DNA from: an uncultured Rubrobacteraceae bacterium
GTDB taxonomy: Bacteria; Actinomycetota; Rubrobacteria; Rubrobacterales; Rubrobacteraceae
Assembly: GCA_902806085.1 (NCBI GenBank)
Contig: CADCVH010000090.1
Span: 1-64,000 of the forward strand
Reading direction: 5' to 3'
Length of the DNA: 64,000 bases
The notes below the pieces were generated by a model, which saw only the letters and a program-made list of their open reading frames with translations, was not told the origin of the DNA and did not search any database. This document shows, in pieces, positions 44,182 to 50,082 of this stretch (the stretch's first letter is position 1; every line of letters begins with the position of its first letter). A program made the position numbers and the translations under genes.

Positions 44182-47181
44182 CTACGAGGAGGAGGCGCGC
44201 AGCGCCCCTTCGAGGGCTCTTATGTCCGCGCTGAGCGCCTCTTTCTCGTCGTAGTCGTCGGTCTCTCGCTGGCTGCGGCGGCGGCTCAGGATCACGAGGC
44301 GCAGCCAGAGCTCGCGGATGGAGCTCTTCGACGAGTAGAGGCCGTCCCTGCGTATCCTCTCCGCTTCGGTATCGAGGGTCATGAGCGTGTCCATCAAAGG
44401 CCGGGTCCGCTCGTCGGAGAAGACGGCGCTTATCTCCTCCCCCGCGTGCTCCTTGAGCACGGCGAAGACGCGGGCCTGGGCCTCGTCGCCGAAGTCTTCG
44501 GGCAGCAGCATCAGGGGGTCTGAGAGCGAGGGGGCCCGAACCCCCCGTCTCAGGGGTTCGGCGCTGAGGTCGGGGCGGGCCAGGATCGCGGCCAGCGTCT
44601 CGCGCCCGGCCTCTTTGAGAGGGTCGCCGAAGCCGGAGGCGGACCGGGGGTTTCGTCCGGGCCGCTGCGCGCGGGGCGCCGGCTGCGCCTCGATGGGCGA
44701 CCCCTTCCGCTCCCCTTGCAGCGCCTCCTGATTCACGCCCAGAGTCTCGGCGGCGAGACGGATAGCCTCCCCGTGGAAGACGGGGTCGTCGATCCGCCTG
44801 ATGAGGCCCTTGATCTCGGGCAGCATCCGGGACCTTTCGGTGGCGTCGGCACCCCGCGCCCGCTCGGCCTTGCGGCGGAATATGTACTCGAGCAGGGGCA
44901 TCGTCTTCGTCTTCAGCATTGCCCTGAACTCTTCCGGGGAGTGTTCTTGCAACCAGTCCGCCGGATCCTCGGAGAGCCGCATGACGCGCAGGTCGAGCTT
45001 CAACCGCGCCGCCTCGACCGCCGCGTCCGCTTCGCCCGCGTCGTTTGTCCCTTCCAGGGACTGCGCGGTCGCGTCGACGCGTTCGAGCGCCCTCTCACCC
45101 GCCGCGTCCGGGTCGAAGAGCACGTAGATCCTGTCCACGTAGCCACTAAGGGTCCGCAAGTGGGCCGGGGTCGTGGCCGTGCCCAGGGTCGCGACCGCGT
45201 TCTTGATGCCGGACTGGTAGAGCATCAAGACGTCCGTGTAGCCCTCCACGATGAGCGCGGCCCGCTCCTTGCGCATCGCTTCGTCCACCTGCGGAAAGCC
45301 GTACAAGAGGTCGCGCTTGTTGAAGATCTCCGTCTCGGGAGAGTTGAGGTACTTCGGCTGGGCATCCCCCAGGGCACGCGCCCCGAAACCAACTATCCGG
45401 CCCCGCCGGTCGGAGATGGGGAACGTGATCCTACCCCCAAAACGCTCCCCGCCCCGCGACGACAGCAACCCCGCAGCGTCCAGGCTAGACCGCTCGATAC
45501 CGAGCTTCTTTACCGCCTGAAAAAAGCCCGAACCCCCGCGCGGCGAATACCCCAAACGGAATTCTTCTATAGTAGAACGCATCAAACCACGGCTCTCCAG
45601 GTAGTCGCGGGCGTGCTCGGCTTCCGGGCTGGCGGACTTGAGGAGGTACTTGTGGTAATAGATGGCGGCGGCGGCCAGGGCCCTGTAGATCCCGCGCCGG
45701 CGGCCGGCGCGTTTCTTGGCGGCCTCCGCGTCTCCCCCGCCCTCGAACTCCAGCTCGACGCCGGAGCGTTCGGCGAGGTAGGAGACCGCCTCGGCGAAGT
45801 CCAGGGACTTGAGATCCATCAACAGTTTGATGGCGTCGCCGCCCCGCTGGCAGTTGTGGGTAACGCCCATCTTTGTCAGGAATGTGTGGGATCCCGTGGT
45901 GGTTATATCGACTACCGTCGCGGATTCCTCTCGATCCGTCCCCACCTGCTGGACCACCGAGAGGAAGTAGTCCACACCGTCGATATTGATGAAGAAGCCT
46001 TTCAACGACTCCTTGCTCAGGATGTGTACGTAGTAGCACTTTCTGCGACGCACGCCGTCGTTGCCCTCGCGGGCGGCGAGGCTAGATGATGAGCACACCC
46101 GTCCGGCCTGGATGCAGAGCGCGAAGATGCCGTATGCCAGCTCTTCCGACACCGACGCGCCCGATGTGATGCCGTTGGCGAAAGACCCGTCGCCATCCAT
46201 ATACCCGTCTATCAAGGCGGCCTGGCACTCGCGCGACCAGTTGAGCGCCTCGAACGGTATCCGCTTGTGTTCGCAGCCGCTGCCGAACCAATGCCCGAAG
46301 AGCAGGGAGAGATCGGTGCTTGAGCAGGCGACCTCACACAGATCCCGCTCTGGACGGGAGAAGATCGTGGCCTGCCCGCCGAACTCCTCGTTGAGCACGT
46401 GGGCCACCCTGCTTGCCAGGGAATCTTCTTCGTGCGCGCCGAGGCTCCACTTGATGCCGCCCCTGTAGAGGGACCCTTCGGCCAGCCAGACGCCGTAGAG
46501 CCAGGCCGTCTTCGGATTCACGGGCAGGGTGGAGATCCTCCGGGCACGGGGATCCTTCGTGTAAGGCTTTATTACCCGTTCGCCGGGTAGGGGCGAGTCG
46601 TTGCGCTCGTCGTCGGGGACCACGGGGTACAGCCAGAAGTCGCCCTCCCGGACATCCGACGCGGGTCCGACCGTAATACGGGCGTTGGAGCCTTTCCGGC
46701 GAAGCTTTCGGGAGAACCGCATCGTTTTCTCGCCGGCGCTTCGGAGGTGGACCCCGGGTATGGAGCGCAGCGCTTCCTCCCGCGAGACATAGAGGCAGGT
46801 GTGGTCCGGCGTGAGTTCGATGCCCTCCTTGGCCGCCCCGGTCGAAATCTTTGTGGTGGACCCGGACCTGAACCATTTATCGGTGATGGTCTCGCGGCGT
46901 CCGTCGCGGCCGATAACCTCGTCGCCCGGCTCGGTTGCGCCTATCGGGATCAGGCCCCTCGAAGTCCAGATGCGCTCGTTGGCCTCCAGGCAGCCGAAAC
47001 AGTAATAGAAGCCCCTGTCGGCGGAGACGCTGAAGGAGGGGGTTTTTTCCTGGTGGTCGGGGTAGGGGCAGAGGCCCGAGAAGCGGGCCCCTTGGCGGCG
47101 GAGGGCGGTGAACTCGGAGGTTACTTCGACTATGTTGGCCGCCTCGCGGACGTCTTCTATGCTGCGCTGCGAGATCCTCAA
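44182..47181 (-). CDS. dnaG: DNA primase DnaG containing an intein
   Basis: The 999-residue precursor is a 619-residue primase interrupted by a 380-residue intein after residue 63. Extein domains in order: CHC2 zinc ribbon (C38, H43, C61, and the Cys that follows the intein, within CQRGGDAIK), the core with TOPRIM motifs (ALIVEGYTDVLML, then IYVLFDPDAAGERAL), and a C-terminal helicase-binding region. Without splicing the ribbon is split and the fourth ligand is displaced by 380 residues. The TTG at 47181 starts MRISQRSIEDVREAANIVEV, typical for DnaG. DnaG makes replication primers and is essential, so splicing must work unless there is another copy. The gene is divergent from ppc. Confidence 0.95.
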   Translation of the reverse strand: MRISQRSIEDVREAANIVEVTSEFTALRRQGARFSGLCPYPDHQEKTPSFSVSADRGFYYCFGCLEANERIWTSRGLIPIGATEPGDEVIGRDGRRETITDKWFRSGSTTKISTGAAKEGIELTPDHTCLYVSREEALRSIPGVHLRSAGEKTMRFSRKLRRKGSNARITVGPASDVREGDFWLYPVVPDDERNDSPLPGERVIKPYTKDPRARRISTLPVNPKTAWLYGVWLAEGSLYRGGIKWSLGAHEEDSLASRVAHVLNEEFGGQATIFSRPERDLCEVACSSTDLSLLFGHWFGSGCEHKRIPFEALNWSRECQAALIDGYMDGDGSFANGITSGASVSEELAYGIFALCIQAGRVCSSSSLAAREGNDGVRRRKCYYVHILSKESLKGFFINIDGVDYFLSVVQQVGTDREESATVVDITTTGSHTFLTKMGVTHNCQRGGDAIKLLMDLKSLDFAEAVSYLAERSGVELEFEGGGDAEAAKKRAGRRRGIYRALAAAAIYYHKYLLKSASPEAEHARDYLESRGLMRSTIEEFRLGYSPRGGSGFFQAVKKLGIERSSLDAAGLLSSRGGERFGGRITFPISDRRGRIVGFGARALGDAQPKYLNSPETEIFNKRDLLYGFPQVDEAMRKERAALIVEGYTDVLMLYQSGIKNAVATLGTATTPAHLRTLSGYVDRIYVLFDPDAAGERALERVDATAQSLEGTNDAGEADAAVEAARLKLDLRVMRLSEDPADWLQEHSPEEFRAMLKTKTMPLLEYIFRRKAERARGADATERSRMLPEIKGLIRRIDDPVFHGEAIRLAAETLGVNQEALQGERKGSPIEAQPAPRAQRPGRNPRSASGFGDPLKEAGRETLAAILARPDLSAEPLRRGVRAPSLSDPLMLLPEDFGDEAQARVFAVLKEHAGEEISAVFSDERTRPLMDTLMTLDTEAERIRRDGLYSSKSSIRELWLRLVILSRRRSQRETDDYDEKEALSADIRALEGALRASSS
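45853..46992 (-). mobile_element. LAGLIDADG intein in dnaG (380 residues)
   Basis: The intein starts at Cys (46992) in CLEANERIWTSRGLIPIG and ends in THN (45853), with Cys as the first residue after it; this is a class 1 layout with Cys1, terminal His-Asn and Cys+1. Block B is TPDH (intein residues 61-64) and block F VVDITTTGSHTF (360-371). Two LAGLIDADG helices are present, YGVWLAEGSLYRG (acid at 172) and LIDGYMDGDGS (acid at 266), so the homing endonuclease may be active. Three 60-base lines I counted inside are about 48-65 percent GC, against 73-77 percent in two flanking lines, consistent with acquisition. Confidence 0.95.
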
Positions 47182-47194
47182 CCCCGGTCCCCCG

Positions 47195-47210
47195 TTGTAC
47201 CGATGTACAA
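47195..47210. promoter_or_regulatory. Palindrome between dnaG and ppc
   Basis: TTGTAC-CGAT-GTACAA is a perfect 6-4-6 palindrome 14 bases upstream of the dnaG start. It covers the first possible ppc ATG at 47203. The size and spacing suit a dimeric repressor. No regulator can be named. Confidence 0.45.
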
Positions 47211-50082
47211 ATATGTGCGGTTACTTGCCGTTCCCATGGGGCGTAATGTTACTCTACCGACCGTGAGTATCCGGCAGACATCTTCCGAGGCACCCCGGGC
47301 GGGGTACGCGGACCTCCCGCCCGGGGTCGGGTTCGAGCCCAAAGACGAGCCGCTAAGGCGGGACATCAACCTGCTCGGGCGGGTGCTGGGTCAGGTCTTG
47401 ATCGAGCAGGAAGGCCGGCGGCTCTTCGAGACCGAGGAGGAGATAAGGCTGCTGTGCAAGCGGCTGCGGTTCGACTACGACCCCGCGCTCGACGAGCGGC
47501 TGCGCGCCCTTATAGACGGCCTCGATTCGGACGAGGTGGAGAGGATCGTCCGGGCCTTCTCGGTATACTTCCAGCTCGTCAACATAGCGGAACGCTACCA
47601 TCGGGTTCGGAGACGCCGGCAGTACGAGTCGTCGTCGGGGAACCCGCCGCAGCGGGCGTCGGTGGCAAGCGCCCTCTCCCGCTTGAAGGACGAGGGGATG
47701 GACGCGGGACGCTTGCAGGAGGTGCTCGACGGTCTCAACGTCGGGCTCGTGCTCACGGCCCACCCGACGGAGGCCACGCGCAGGAGCGTCCGGCGCAAGC
47801 ACGAGCGCATCGGGGAGATGCTGGCAAGCCTCGAATCGCCGTCGCTCACCTGGAGGGAACGCCGGCGTCTGGAGGAGGGCCTGGCCGAGGAGATCACGGT
47901 CCTCTGGCAGACGGACGAGCTCAGGGTCCGCCGCCCGGAGGTGGTCCAGGAGATAGAGCGGACCCTGCTCTTCTTCGAGCATCCCCTCGTCTCGGCGACG
48001 CTCGAAGCGTACCGGGAGTTCGAGGACGAGCTGGAGATCCAGTTCCCCGAGCAGACGCCGCGCCTGGGGCGCGTGCTCGAGTTCGGGTCGTGGGTCGGGG
48101 GGGACCAGGACGGCAACCCCTTCGTCGAGCCCCCGATGATAAACACCGCGCTCGGCCTGCACCGGGCCCTGATCCTGAAGCGTCATATAAGCTCCGTCTC
48201 GGAGCTTGTGGACCACATGAGCCAGTCCGAGAGGCTGACCGGCGTCTCGGAAGATCTCCGCGCGGCCGTCGAAGGGTACGAGCGTCGGATACCGGAGGTC
48301 GCCGAACGCTACCAGGCCATCGACCCGAACGAGCTCTACCGCAAGATGCTGCTGTTCGTGGCCGAGCGCCTGCGGGCCACCCTCGAAGACCCCGAATCCG
48401 CGGCGGCCTACGAGGGGGTTTCGGGTTTCCTGACGGACCTCTCGCTCGTCAGGGAGAGCTTGCTGGAGCACGGCGGCGGACGCACGGCGGCCGGGGGACT
48501 GCGCGACCTGATCCGGCAGGCCGAGGTCTTCGGCTTCCATCTCGCCAAGCTGGACGTCCGGCAGGAGAGCTCGACGGTGGTGCGGGCTACCGCGGTCGTC
48601 GTCTCACAAGCCACGGGCGAGGACCTCCTGGCAATGAACGAGGAGGAGCGCGCCGCGTGCCTGCGAACGCTCCTCTCGGATCCGGACCTCCCGGACGGCA
48701 CCCCGGGCGACCTGCCGGAGGAGTCGCGGAAGGTACTGGACACCTTCGAACGGATTCGCGCGGCCCGGGAGGAGTTCTCGGAGACGCCGGTGGAGGCGTT
48801 CGTGTTGAGCATGGCCCACCACGCGAGCGACGTGCTTTGCGTGCAGTTGCTGGCCCGGCGGGCGGGGCTGCTCGAGGTGGACGCGGAAGGCAGGTGCACG
48901 GCCAACCACCTGAGGGTAACGCCGCTCTTCGAGACGGTGGACGATCTGAAGCGCGCCCCCGACGCGCTGCGGAGCCTGCTCGAGGACCCCTTCTACCGTT
49001 CGTCCCTCTCTCACGGCGGCGGCCTGCAGGAGATCATGCTCGGCTACAGCGACTCCGGGAAGGACGCCGGCTACATCGCGAGCAACTGGACCCTGTACAA
49101 GGCGCAAGGGCACCTCGCGTCGGTGGCCCGCGATTACGGCGTCAGGCTCAGGGTCTTCCACGGTCGCGGCGGCAGCGCGAGCCGGGGCGGCGGTCCGAGC
49201 TACCAGGCGATCATGGCCCAACCACCCGGCACGCTCGACGGCAGCATCAGGATCACGGAGCAGGGCGAGGTGATCTCCTTCAAGTACAGCATGCGTGGCC
49301 TCGCCCGCCGCAACCTGGACACCGTCCTGGCCGCGGTCCTCGAAGCGACCGCCGCCCACTCCCCTTCGACGCCGGACCCGCGCTGGGTCGAGGCGATGGA
49401 AGCACTCTCCGACACCGCCAGGGACACGTACCGCGACCTCGTCTACAAGGACGAACGCTTCCTGCCTTTCTTCTCCCAGGCGTCCCCCATCGGCGAACTC
49501 TCCTCCCTGAATATGGGCAGCCGCCCCGCCCGAAGGGTCAAAAACCCGGAAGTGGAGAGCCTGCGGGCCATCCCGTGGGTCTTCGCGTGGACCCAGAACC
49601 GCTCCCTGCTGCCATCCTGGTACGGTTCGGGCACCGCGCTTCGCTCTCACACCGGGTCGGAGGAGAAACTGCGCACCCTGCGGGAGATGTACGGGAGCTG
49701 GCCTTTTTTCCGGACACTTGTCGACTTTATGCAGATGACGCTTGCAAAGAGCGATTTGCGGATAGCGAAGACGTACACTTCCCTCGTCTCGGACGATCAG
49801 ATCAGGGCCGGTTTGTGGGCCAGGATCTCGGAGGAGCACTCAGCCTGCGTCGAAGCTTTGCTCCTCATTACGGGCAACGAGAACCTGCTGGACGACAGCC
49901 CGGTCCTGCAGCGCTCGATCCGTCTCAGGAACCCCTACGTGGACCCGCTCTCCTACGTCCAGGTCAGCCTCCTGCGCCGGCTCCGCAACCTCTCCGAGGA
50001 CTCCCCCGAGCGCGAAAGCGTCCTGAAGACCCTCCTGCTAACCGTCTCCGGTATCTCCTCCGGCCTGCTGAACACCGGCTAA
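47203..50082 (+). CDS. ppc: Phosphoenolpyruvate carboxylase
   Basis: This enzyme makes oxaloacetate from PEP and bicarbonate. Catalytic motifs are VLTAHPTEATRRS (His), GSWVGGDQDGNPFV, MLGYSDSGKDAGYIAS (Lys/Asp), FHGRGGSASRGGGPS, and the C-terminal QxxR-type tail ending SGISSGLLNTG, which carries the conserved final Gly. Length is up to 959 residues. Three in-frame starts are possible (ATG 47203, ATG 47236, GTG 47263); none has a ribosome-binding site, and homology begins only near DEPLRRDINLLG, so the N-terminus is open. The gene is divergent from dnaG. Confidence 0.95.
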   Translation: MYKYVRLLAVPMGRNVTLPTVSIRQTSSEAPRAGYADLPPGVGFEPKDEPLRRDINLLGRVLGQVLIEQEGRRLFETEEEIRLLCKRLRFDYDPALDERLRALIDGLDSDEVERIVRAFSVYFQLVNIAERYHRVRRRRQYESSSGNPPQRASVASALSRLKDEGMDAGRLQEVLDGLNVGLVLTAHPTEATRRSVRRKHERIGEMLASLESPSLTWRERRRLEEGLAEEITVLWQTDELRVRRPEVVQEIERTLLFFEHPLVSATLEAYREFEDELEIQFPEQTPRLGRVLEFGSWVGGDQDGNPFVEPPMINTALGLHRALILKRHISSVSELVDHMSQSERLTGVSEDLRAAVEGYERRIPEVAERYQAIDPNELYRKMLLFVAERLRATLEDPESAAAYEGVSGFLTDLSLVRESLLEHGGGRTAAGGLRDLIRQAEVFGFHLAKLDVRQESSTVVRATAVVVSQATGEDLLAMNEEERAACLRTLLSDPDLPDGTPGDLPEESRKVLDTFERIRAAREEFSETPVEAFVLSMAHHASDVLCVQLLARRAGLLEVDAEGRCTANHLRVTPLFETVDDLKRAPDALRSLLEDPFYRSSLSHGGGLQEIMLGYSDSGKDAGYIASNWTLYKAQGHLASVARDYGVRLRVFHGRGGSASRGGGPSYQAIMAQPPGTLDGSIRITEQGEVISFKYSMRGLARRNLDTVLAAVLEATAAHSPSTPDPRWVEAMEALSDTARDTYRDLVYKDERFLPFFSQASPIGELSSLNMGSRPARRVKNPEVESLRAIPWVFAWTQNRSLLPSWYGSGTALRSHTGSEEKLRTLREMYGSWPFFRTLVDFMQMTLAKSDLRIAKTYTSLVSDDQIRAGLWARISEEHSACVEALLLITGNENLLDDSPVLQRSIRLRNPYVDPLSYVQVSLLRRLRNLSEDSPERESVLKTLLLTVSGISSGLLNTG

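Follow-up and report, generated by a model that had tools for sequence, protein, structure and literature searches.

The dnaG gene of an uncultured Rubrobacteraceae bacterium carries 380 additional codons inside the zinc ribbon of its product, which raises the question of what the insert is, how it came to occupy this position and what it means for the primase. The gene lies on the minus strand of the window, the whole 64,000-nucleotide stretch of DNA that was analysed.

Organization of the interrupted dnaG gene

The list of open reading frames and the translation give dnaG as a single open frame of 999 codons (Table 1). Domain models place the DnaG zinc ribbon at the N terminus of the product and the DnaG core and Toprim domains at residues 517-702. 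The insert is matched by no primase model and by LAGLIDADG_3 (PF14528) above the Pfam cut-off. It is flanked by CFG on the N side and CQRGGD on the C side, and contains the splicing and endonuclease blocks Cys1, TPDH (with His64), WLYGVWLAEG, LIDGYMDGDG, VVDITTTGSHTFL and VTHN/C, where the slash marks the splice junction. WLYGVWLAEG and LIDGYMDGDG are the two LAGLIDADG-type motifs. Subtracting 380 residues from 999 leaves a DnaG of 619 residues. The original prediction had placed a class 1 intein here; its ends, length and remainder are exact, and the blocks, invariant residues and fold match bear out the assignment.

Table 1. Features of the intein-bearing dnaG gene, in coordinates of the window
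Feature	Position	Strand	Evidence
dnaG, intein-bearing DNA primase precursor, 999 aa (619 aa spliced)	44182..47181	-	ORF; DNAG_N, Zn_ribbon_DnaG, Toprim and TIGR01391 matches; sole PF08275 match in genome
N-extein, residues 1-63, zinc ligands Cys38, His43, Cys61 (Cys61 = extein -3)	46993..47181	-	translation; Zn_ribbon_DnaG match at residues 4-68
Intein, 380 aa, Cys1 (first Cys at 46992) to His379-Asn380 (last Asn at 45853)	45853..46992	-	invariant C1, H64, D268, H379, N380 in 23-intein alignment; AF2 pLDDT 92.1, matches solved inteins
Block A, splice-site nucleophile Cys1, CLEANERIWTSRG	46954..46992	-	23-intein alignment
Block B, GIELTPDHTC, catalytic His64	46795..46824	-	23-intein alignment
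Homing endonuclease domain of LAGLIDADG type (residues ~150-335), with E172 and D268 as catalytic acids	45988..46545	-	Pfam LAGLIDADG_3; PI-SceI/PI-PkoII profile match; E172 and D268 invariant in 8 DnaG inteins
Blocks F and G, TVVDITTTGSHTFL ... KMGVTHN	45853..45915	-	23-intein alignment
C-extein, opening with Cys444 (splicing Cys+1 as well as fourth zinc ligand) and continuing into the catalytic core and Toprim	44182..45852	-	translation, domain matches; empty-site relatives read CFGC gapless

The DnaG core family PF08275 has one match in the whole source genome (G000), so that dnaG is the only copy found. Since it is single, the gene must presumably give a working primase. A PEP carboxylase gene (47180-50082, plus strand) starts divergently beside it, and genes for a MraW-type methylase, a penicillin-binding protein and a Mur ligase lie beyond dnaG. 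No prophage signs are present in the neighbouring genes checked, and the setting is ordinary chromosomal. Plus-strand frames of at least 100 aa opposite dnaG (e.g. 44716-46089) look like high-GC shadow frames.

Conservation and structure of the insert

The insert was aligned with 22 other inteins (alignment A3), giving 8 DnaG inteins and 15 from DnaE, SufB, DnaB and other actinobacterial hosts. The block A nucleophile Cys1 is invariant in all 8 DnaG inteins and all 23 rows. His64 of the block B TPDH, Asp268 (the second catalytic acid) and His379-Asn380 are likewise invariant across the alignment, and a His-Asn C terminus is present in 8/8 DnaG inteins. Together with E172, these residues are unchanged in all same-site inteins, which are 61-82% identical to the window copy. 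In addition, Cys66, just after His64, is invariant in the 8 DnaG inteins and absent from the 15 others; Cys219, Cys223 and Cys240 of the endonuclease are also invariant in all 8.

A profile built from the 8 same-site inserts matches the window with an E value of 4e-224. This score, along with dozens of relatives in which the insert is exactly absent, argues that the insert is not a chance feature. Against solved structures, the insert profile finds PI-SceI (E 8e-6) and PI-PkoII. An AlphaFold2 model based on an alignment including DnaE, SufB, DnaB and other inteins has a pLDDT of 92.1; a model from the 8 close relatives alone reached 53 and was set aside. The top Foldseek matches of the former in the PDB are the TliVMA (E 8e-20), PhoVMA and PI-SceI inteins, and the predicted structure has the HINT fold. 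TliVMA and PI-SceI, which are VMA inteins with a LAGLIDADG endonuclease, share the two-domain fold (TM about 0.7 with TliVMA), but reside in an ATPase of a eukaryote or archaeon and are less than 20% identical to the DnaG intein.

The dnaG insert is a canonical class 1 intein, ordinary in kind and probably mobile, and its endonuclease domain is of the LAGLIDADG homing type. A scan of the source genome with TIGR01445 (intein_Nterm) found the DnaB intein and gave no match to the DnaG intein; this reflects the sensitivity limit of one model and not a defining residue.

The best profile matches outside DnaG are two actinobacterial DnaE (Pol III alpha) inteins, L047 and L048. They resemble the DnaG intein in being class 1, with Cys1 and Cys+1, the same LAGLIDADG type, a replication host and a similar length (385-387 aa), but differ in host protein and site and share only about 23-25% identity with it. 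Both (L047:1039-2199, plus strand; L048:1297-2451, minus strand) lie in the N-terminal PHP region of DnaE in two actinobacteria and read IG/CLxAGQEI ... HN/CE. Full-length relatives of these DnaE inteins, with 25-42% identity, occur in viral-labelled contigs (L143-L151).

Distribution among Rubrobacteraceae

The sample comprised 40 genomes of the source's class, part of which have a readable zinc ribbon. Among the roughly 34 Rubrobacteraceae genomes whose site is readable, 8 (G000, G002, G004, G005, G007, G022, G028 and G033) carry an intein of the same length (380) at the same site. In the remaining readable genomes, dnaG goes from residue 64 directly to 444 and is otherwise intact. The empty sites read CFGC without a gap, confirming the seamless CFG/CQRGGD junction, and often belong to the sister genome of an occupied one. 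Those occupied genomes with visible record titles are metagenome-assembled or apparently so.

The insert could in principle be a permanent primase domain or an assembly artefact, as the open frame runs through it unbroken. Such an insert would split the zinc ribbon, though, and is exactly absent from most relatives; moreover, the same bond is interrupted in 8 genomes, at least seven of them in separate public assemblies. The probability of this reading is negligible, and the comparison with relatives speaks for an intein rather than for a folded part of the primase.

A scan of 84,980 genomes, which covered other phyla for close relatives only, retrieved just seven records of the close intein family, namely the seven other occupied genomes. 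Most are titled as Rubrobacteraceae or Rubrobacter MAGs, and one simply as an Actinobacteria bacterium. When 397 actinobacterial genomes were scanned with a profile, the only matches outside Rubrobacteraceae were distant ones in inteins of other hosts, nearly all at the level of the endonuclease. No same-site intein was found outside Rubrobacteraceae in these scans, and no close relative in viral contigs, phages or plasmids. Long dnaG frames of other actinobacteria (G042, G043, G046 and G056) show no insert elsewhere; their extra length is upstream open frame. The odd match in G375 also proved to be an empty site with a partly deleted C-extein. In this gene (L142:418-2049, minus strand), about 50 C-extein residues are missing right after CSKGGDAI, reflecting either a real deletion or an assembly error.

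The source genome contains a second intein, of 422 aa, in the replicative helicase DnaB (contig C132:48307-49572, plus strand; L069:1501-2766), which follows LSDLRD and ends in SHN/S. Both primosome partners are therefore intein hosts in G000. DnaB of relatives has none, one or apparently two inteins. No coupling to the DnaG intein is seen: G005 and G022 combine a DnaG intein with an inteinless DnaB, and G006 and G003 show the reverse.

Gain, loss and selection

Mapped on the dnaG tree, intein presence requires seven changes, six of which are forced by supported branches (at least six). Sister genomes differ in occupancy in the pairs G004/G003, G005/G008 and G028/G020. Pairwise intein identities of 61-82% roughly track extein identities. 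Synonymous change is near saturation, and dN/dS is about 0.1-0.25 where measurable, including the endonuclease domain; by this sequence measure, the DnaG intein is under purifying selection.

The flanks of occupied sites carry a signature. The codon GGG at -1 (GGG/TGC) is found in 6/8 occupied and 2/23 empty alleles (Fisher p 0.0009). At +2, Gln occurs in 8/8 and 12/23 (p 0.03). Both p values are inflated by shared ancestry. Sequence identity dips at the junction in G005/G008 (0.73 vs 0.94), G022/G030 (0.79 vs 0.86), G033/G036 (0.83 vs 0.89) and G028/G020 (0.85 vs 0.91), with few controls: one close pair above 0.83 has both sites empty. No dip is present at the junction in G004/G003. The pattern is compatible with co-conversion during homing, flank replacement at loss, or resistant alleles, and the signature bears only indirectly on cleavage of empty sites. 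The patchy tree and the signature of occupied alleles appear to indicate homing and loss.

Much of the intein's history may nevertheless be vertical with loss, because in several pairs intein and host have diverged to roughly similar degrees. In the extreme case, it would be a purely vertical, ancestral family intein that is now only being lost and whose endonuclease no longer cuts. Intein and extein identities are indeed alike in many pairs (e.g. 82/82%), the intein tree joins G000 with G004, two genomes that are also close on the host tree, and some LAGLIDADG motifs are altered (GYFDADA in L006 and GYMVGDG in L007). Even so, both catalytic acids are invariant and the endonuclease is under purifying selection; the flank signature is present in most occupied alleles and not in their closest empty relatives; and the G002 and G005 inteins, at 74% identity, are more diverged than their exteins at 83%. 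We regard strictly vertical descent as rather unlikely.

Almost certainly, the insert in the DnaG zinc ribbon is a cis-splicing intein of class 1 that includes a LAGLIDADG endonuclease in frame, would splice to leave a 619-aa primase, and would be spread by homing and also lost. The sequences and the model show its anatomy, fold match, empty sites, conservation and purifying selection; splicing, DNA cleavage and homing we infer. Cys1 would undergo an N-S acyl shift, and Cys+1 would receive the branch by transthioesterification. Cyclisation through His379/Asn380 would release the intein and ligate CFG to CQRGGD, regaining the Cys-His-Cys-Cys zinc site and the 619-aa primase. The endonuclease would promote homing into empty Rubrobacteraceae dnaG alleles and, with losses of the intein, produce the patchy distribution.

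Position in the zinc site

By what is established for DnaG zinc ribbons and by the alignment, the zinc ligands of DnaG are Cys38, His43, Cys61 and Cys64. The intein, unusually, separates the third of them from the fourth. Cys(-3) is a zinc ligand, Cys1 the nucleophile and Cys+1 the fourth zinc ligand; because the insertion falls exactly on a metal-binding cysteine, intein chemistry and the primase zinc site share residues. The cell, with one dnaG, presumably depends on splicing to regain this site.

The spacing CFG/C1, with Cys at extein -3, occurs in 8/8 DnaG inteins and equals that of a known intein redox trap. A Cys-3/Cys1 disulfide forms this trap naturally in the P. abyssi MoaA intein and by engineering in Ssp DnaE (PMC3922620, PMC10663303). 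Zn2+ blocks splicing of several inteins, including M. smegmatis DnaB (PMC10663303), and oxidants pause a mycobacterial DnaB intein; oxidation of the DnaB intein has been proposed to halt replication (PMC6195587). By analogy, the DnaG intein could also be a regulatory switch, in which a Cys61-Cys1 disulfide, or Zn2+ bound by Cys38/His43/Cys61/Cys1, holds the precursor so that primase matures only under reducing or suitable zinc conditions. On the other hand, Cys61 is kept in empty sites too, where it is conserved for zinc binding, so that the Cys(-3) motif is a side effect of where the intein sits. That sister genomes often lack the intein also argues against a needed function. A switch is unlikely on balance. 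A specific metal-ligand relay is quite improbable. In the precursor, intein Cys1 would complete the primase zinc site with Cys38, His43 and Cys61, which would keep the nucleophile locked (alternatively, Cys61 would be joined to Cys1 by a disulfide); zinc loss or reduction would free splicing, and Cys+1 would then become the fourth ligand. Still, a zinc- or redox-gated primase is a fair hypothesis by analogy.

The MoaA intein shares Cys at extein -3 and Cys1 with the DnaG intein, but has an archaeal MoaA host and a demonstrated redox effect, whereas the DnaG intein is known from sequence and its Cys-3 is an expected zinc ligand. Mycobacterial DnaB inteins, responsive to redox and zinc, also occupy an actinobacterial replisome protein, but M. 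smegmatis DnaBi1 is class 3 in a helicase and the DnaG intein class 1 in a primase. Mycobacteriophage TOPRIM inteins (PMC5050341) also reside in a primase/topoisomerase-like protein, but one of phages.

Significance

The primase zinc ribbon had been flagged as an unusual intein site. DnaG already appears in a 2018 review's table of bacterial intein hosts, which tempers the hint of novelty, although the table names no site or organism (PMC5874633). No papers on Rubrobacter inteins, DnaG zinc-ribbon inteins or this DnaG site were found in the open literature. DnaG as a host was already known, and the insertion point is the interesting part. With this finding, bacterial primase has a defined intein site that is recurrently occupied and lies at a residue needed for both splicing and zinc binding. 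Empty and occupied sister genomes provide a system for the study of intein gain and loss, and the DnaG intein is a natural test of redox or zinc gating of replication-protein splicing. If the relay were true, both zinc and the redox state would affect primase supply in this stress-tolerant family.
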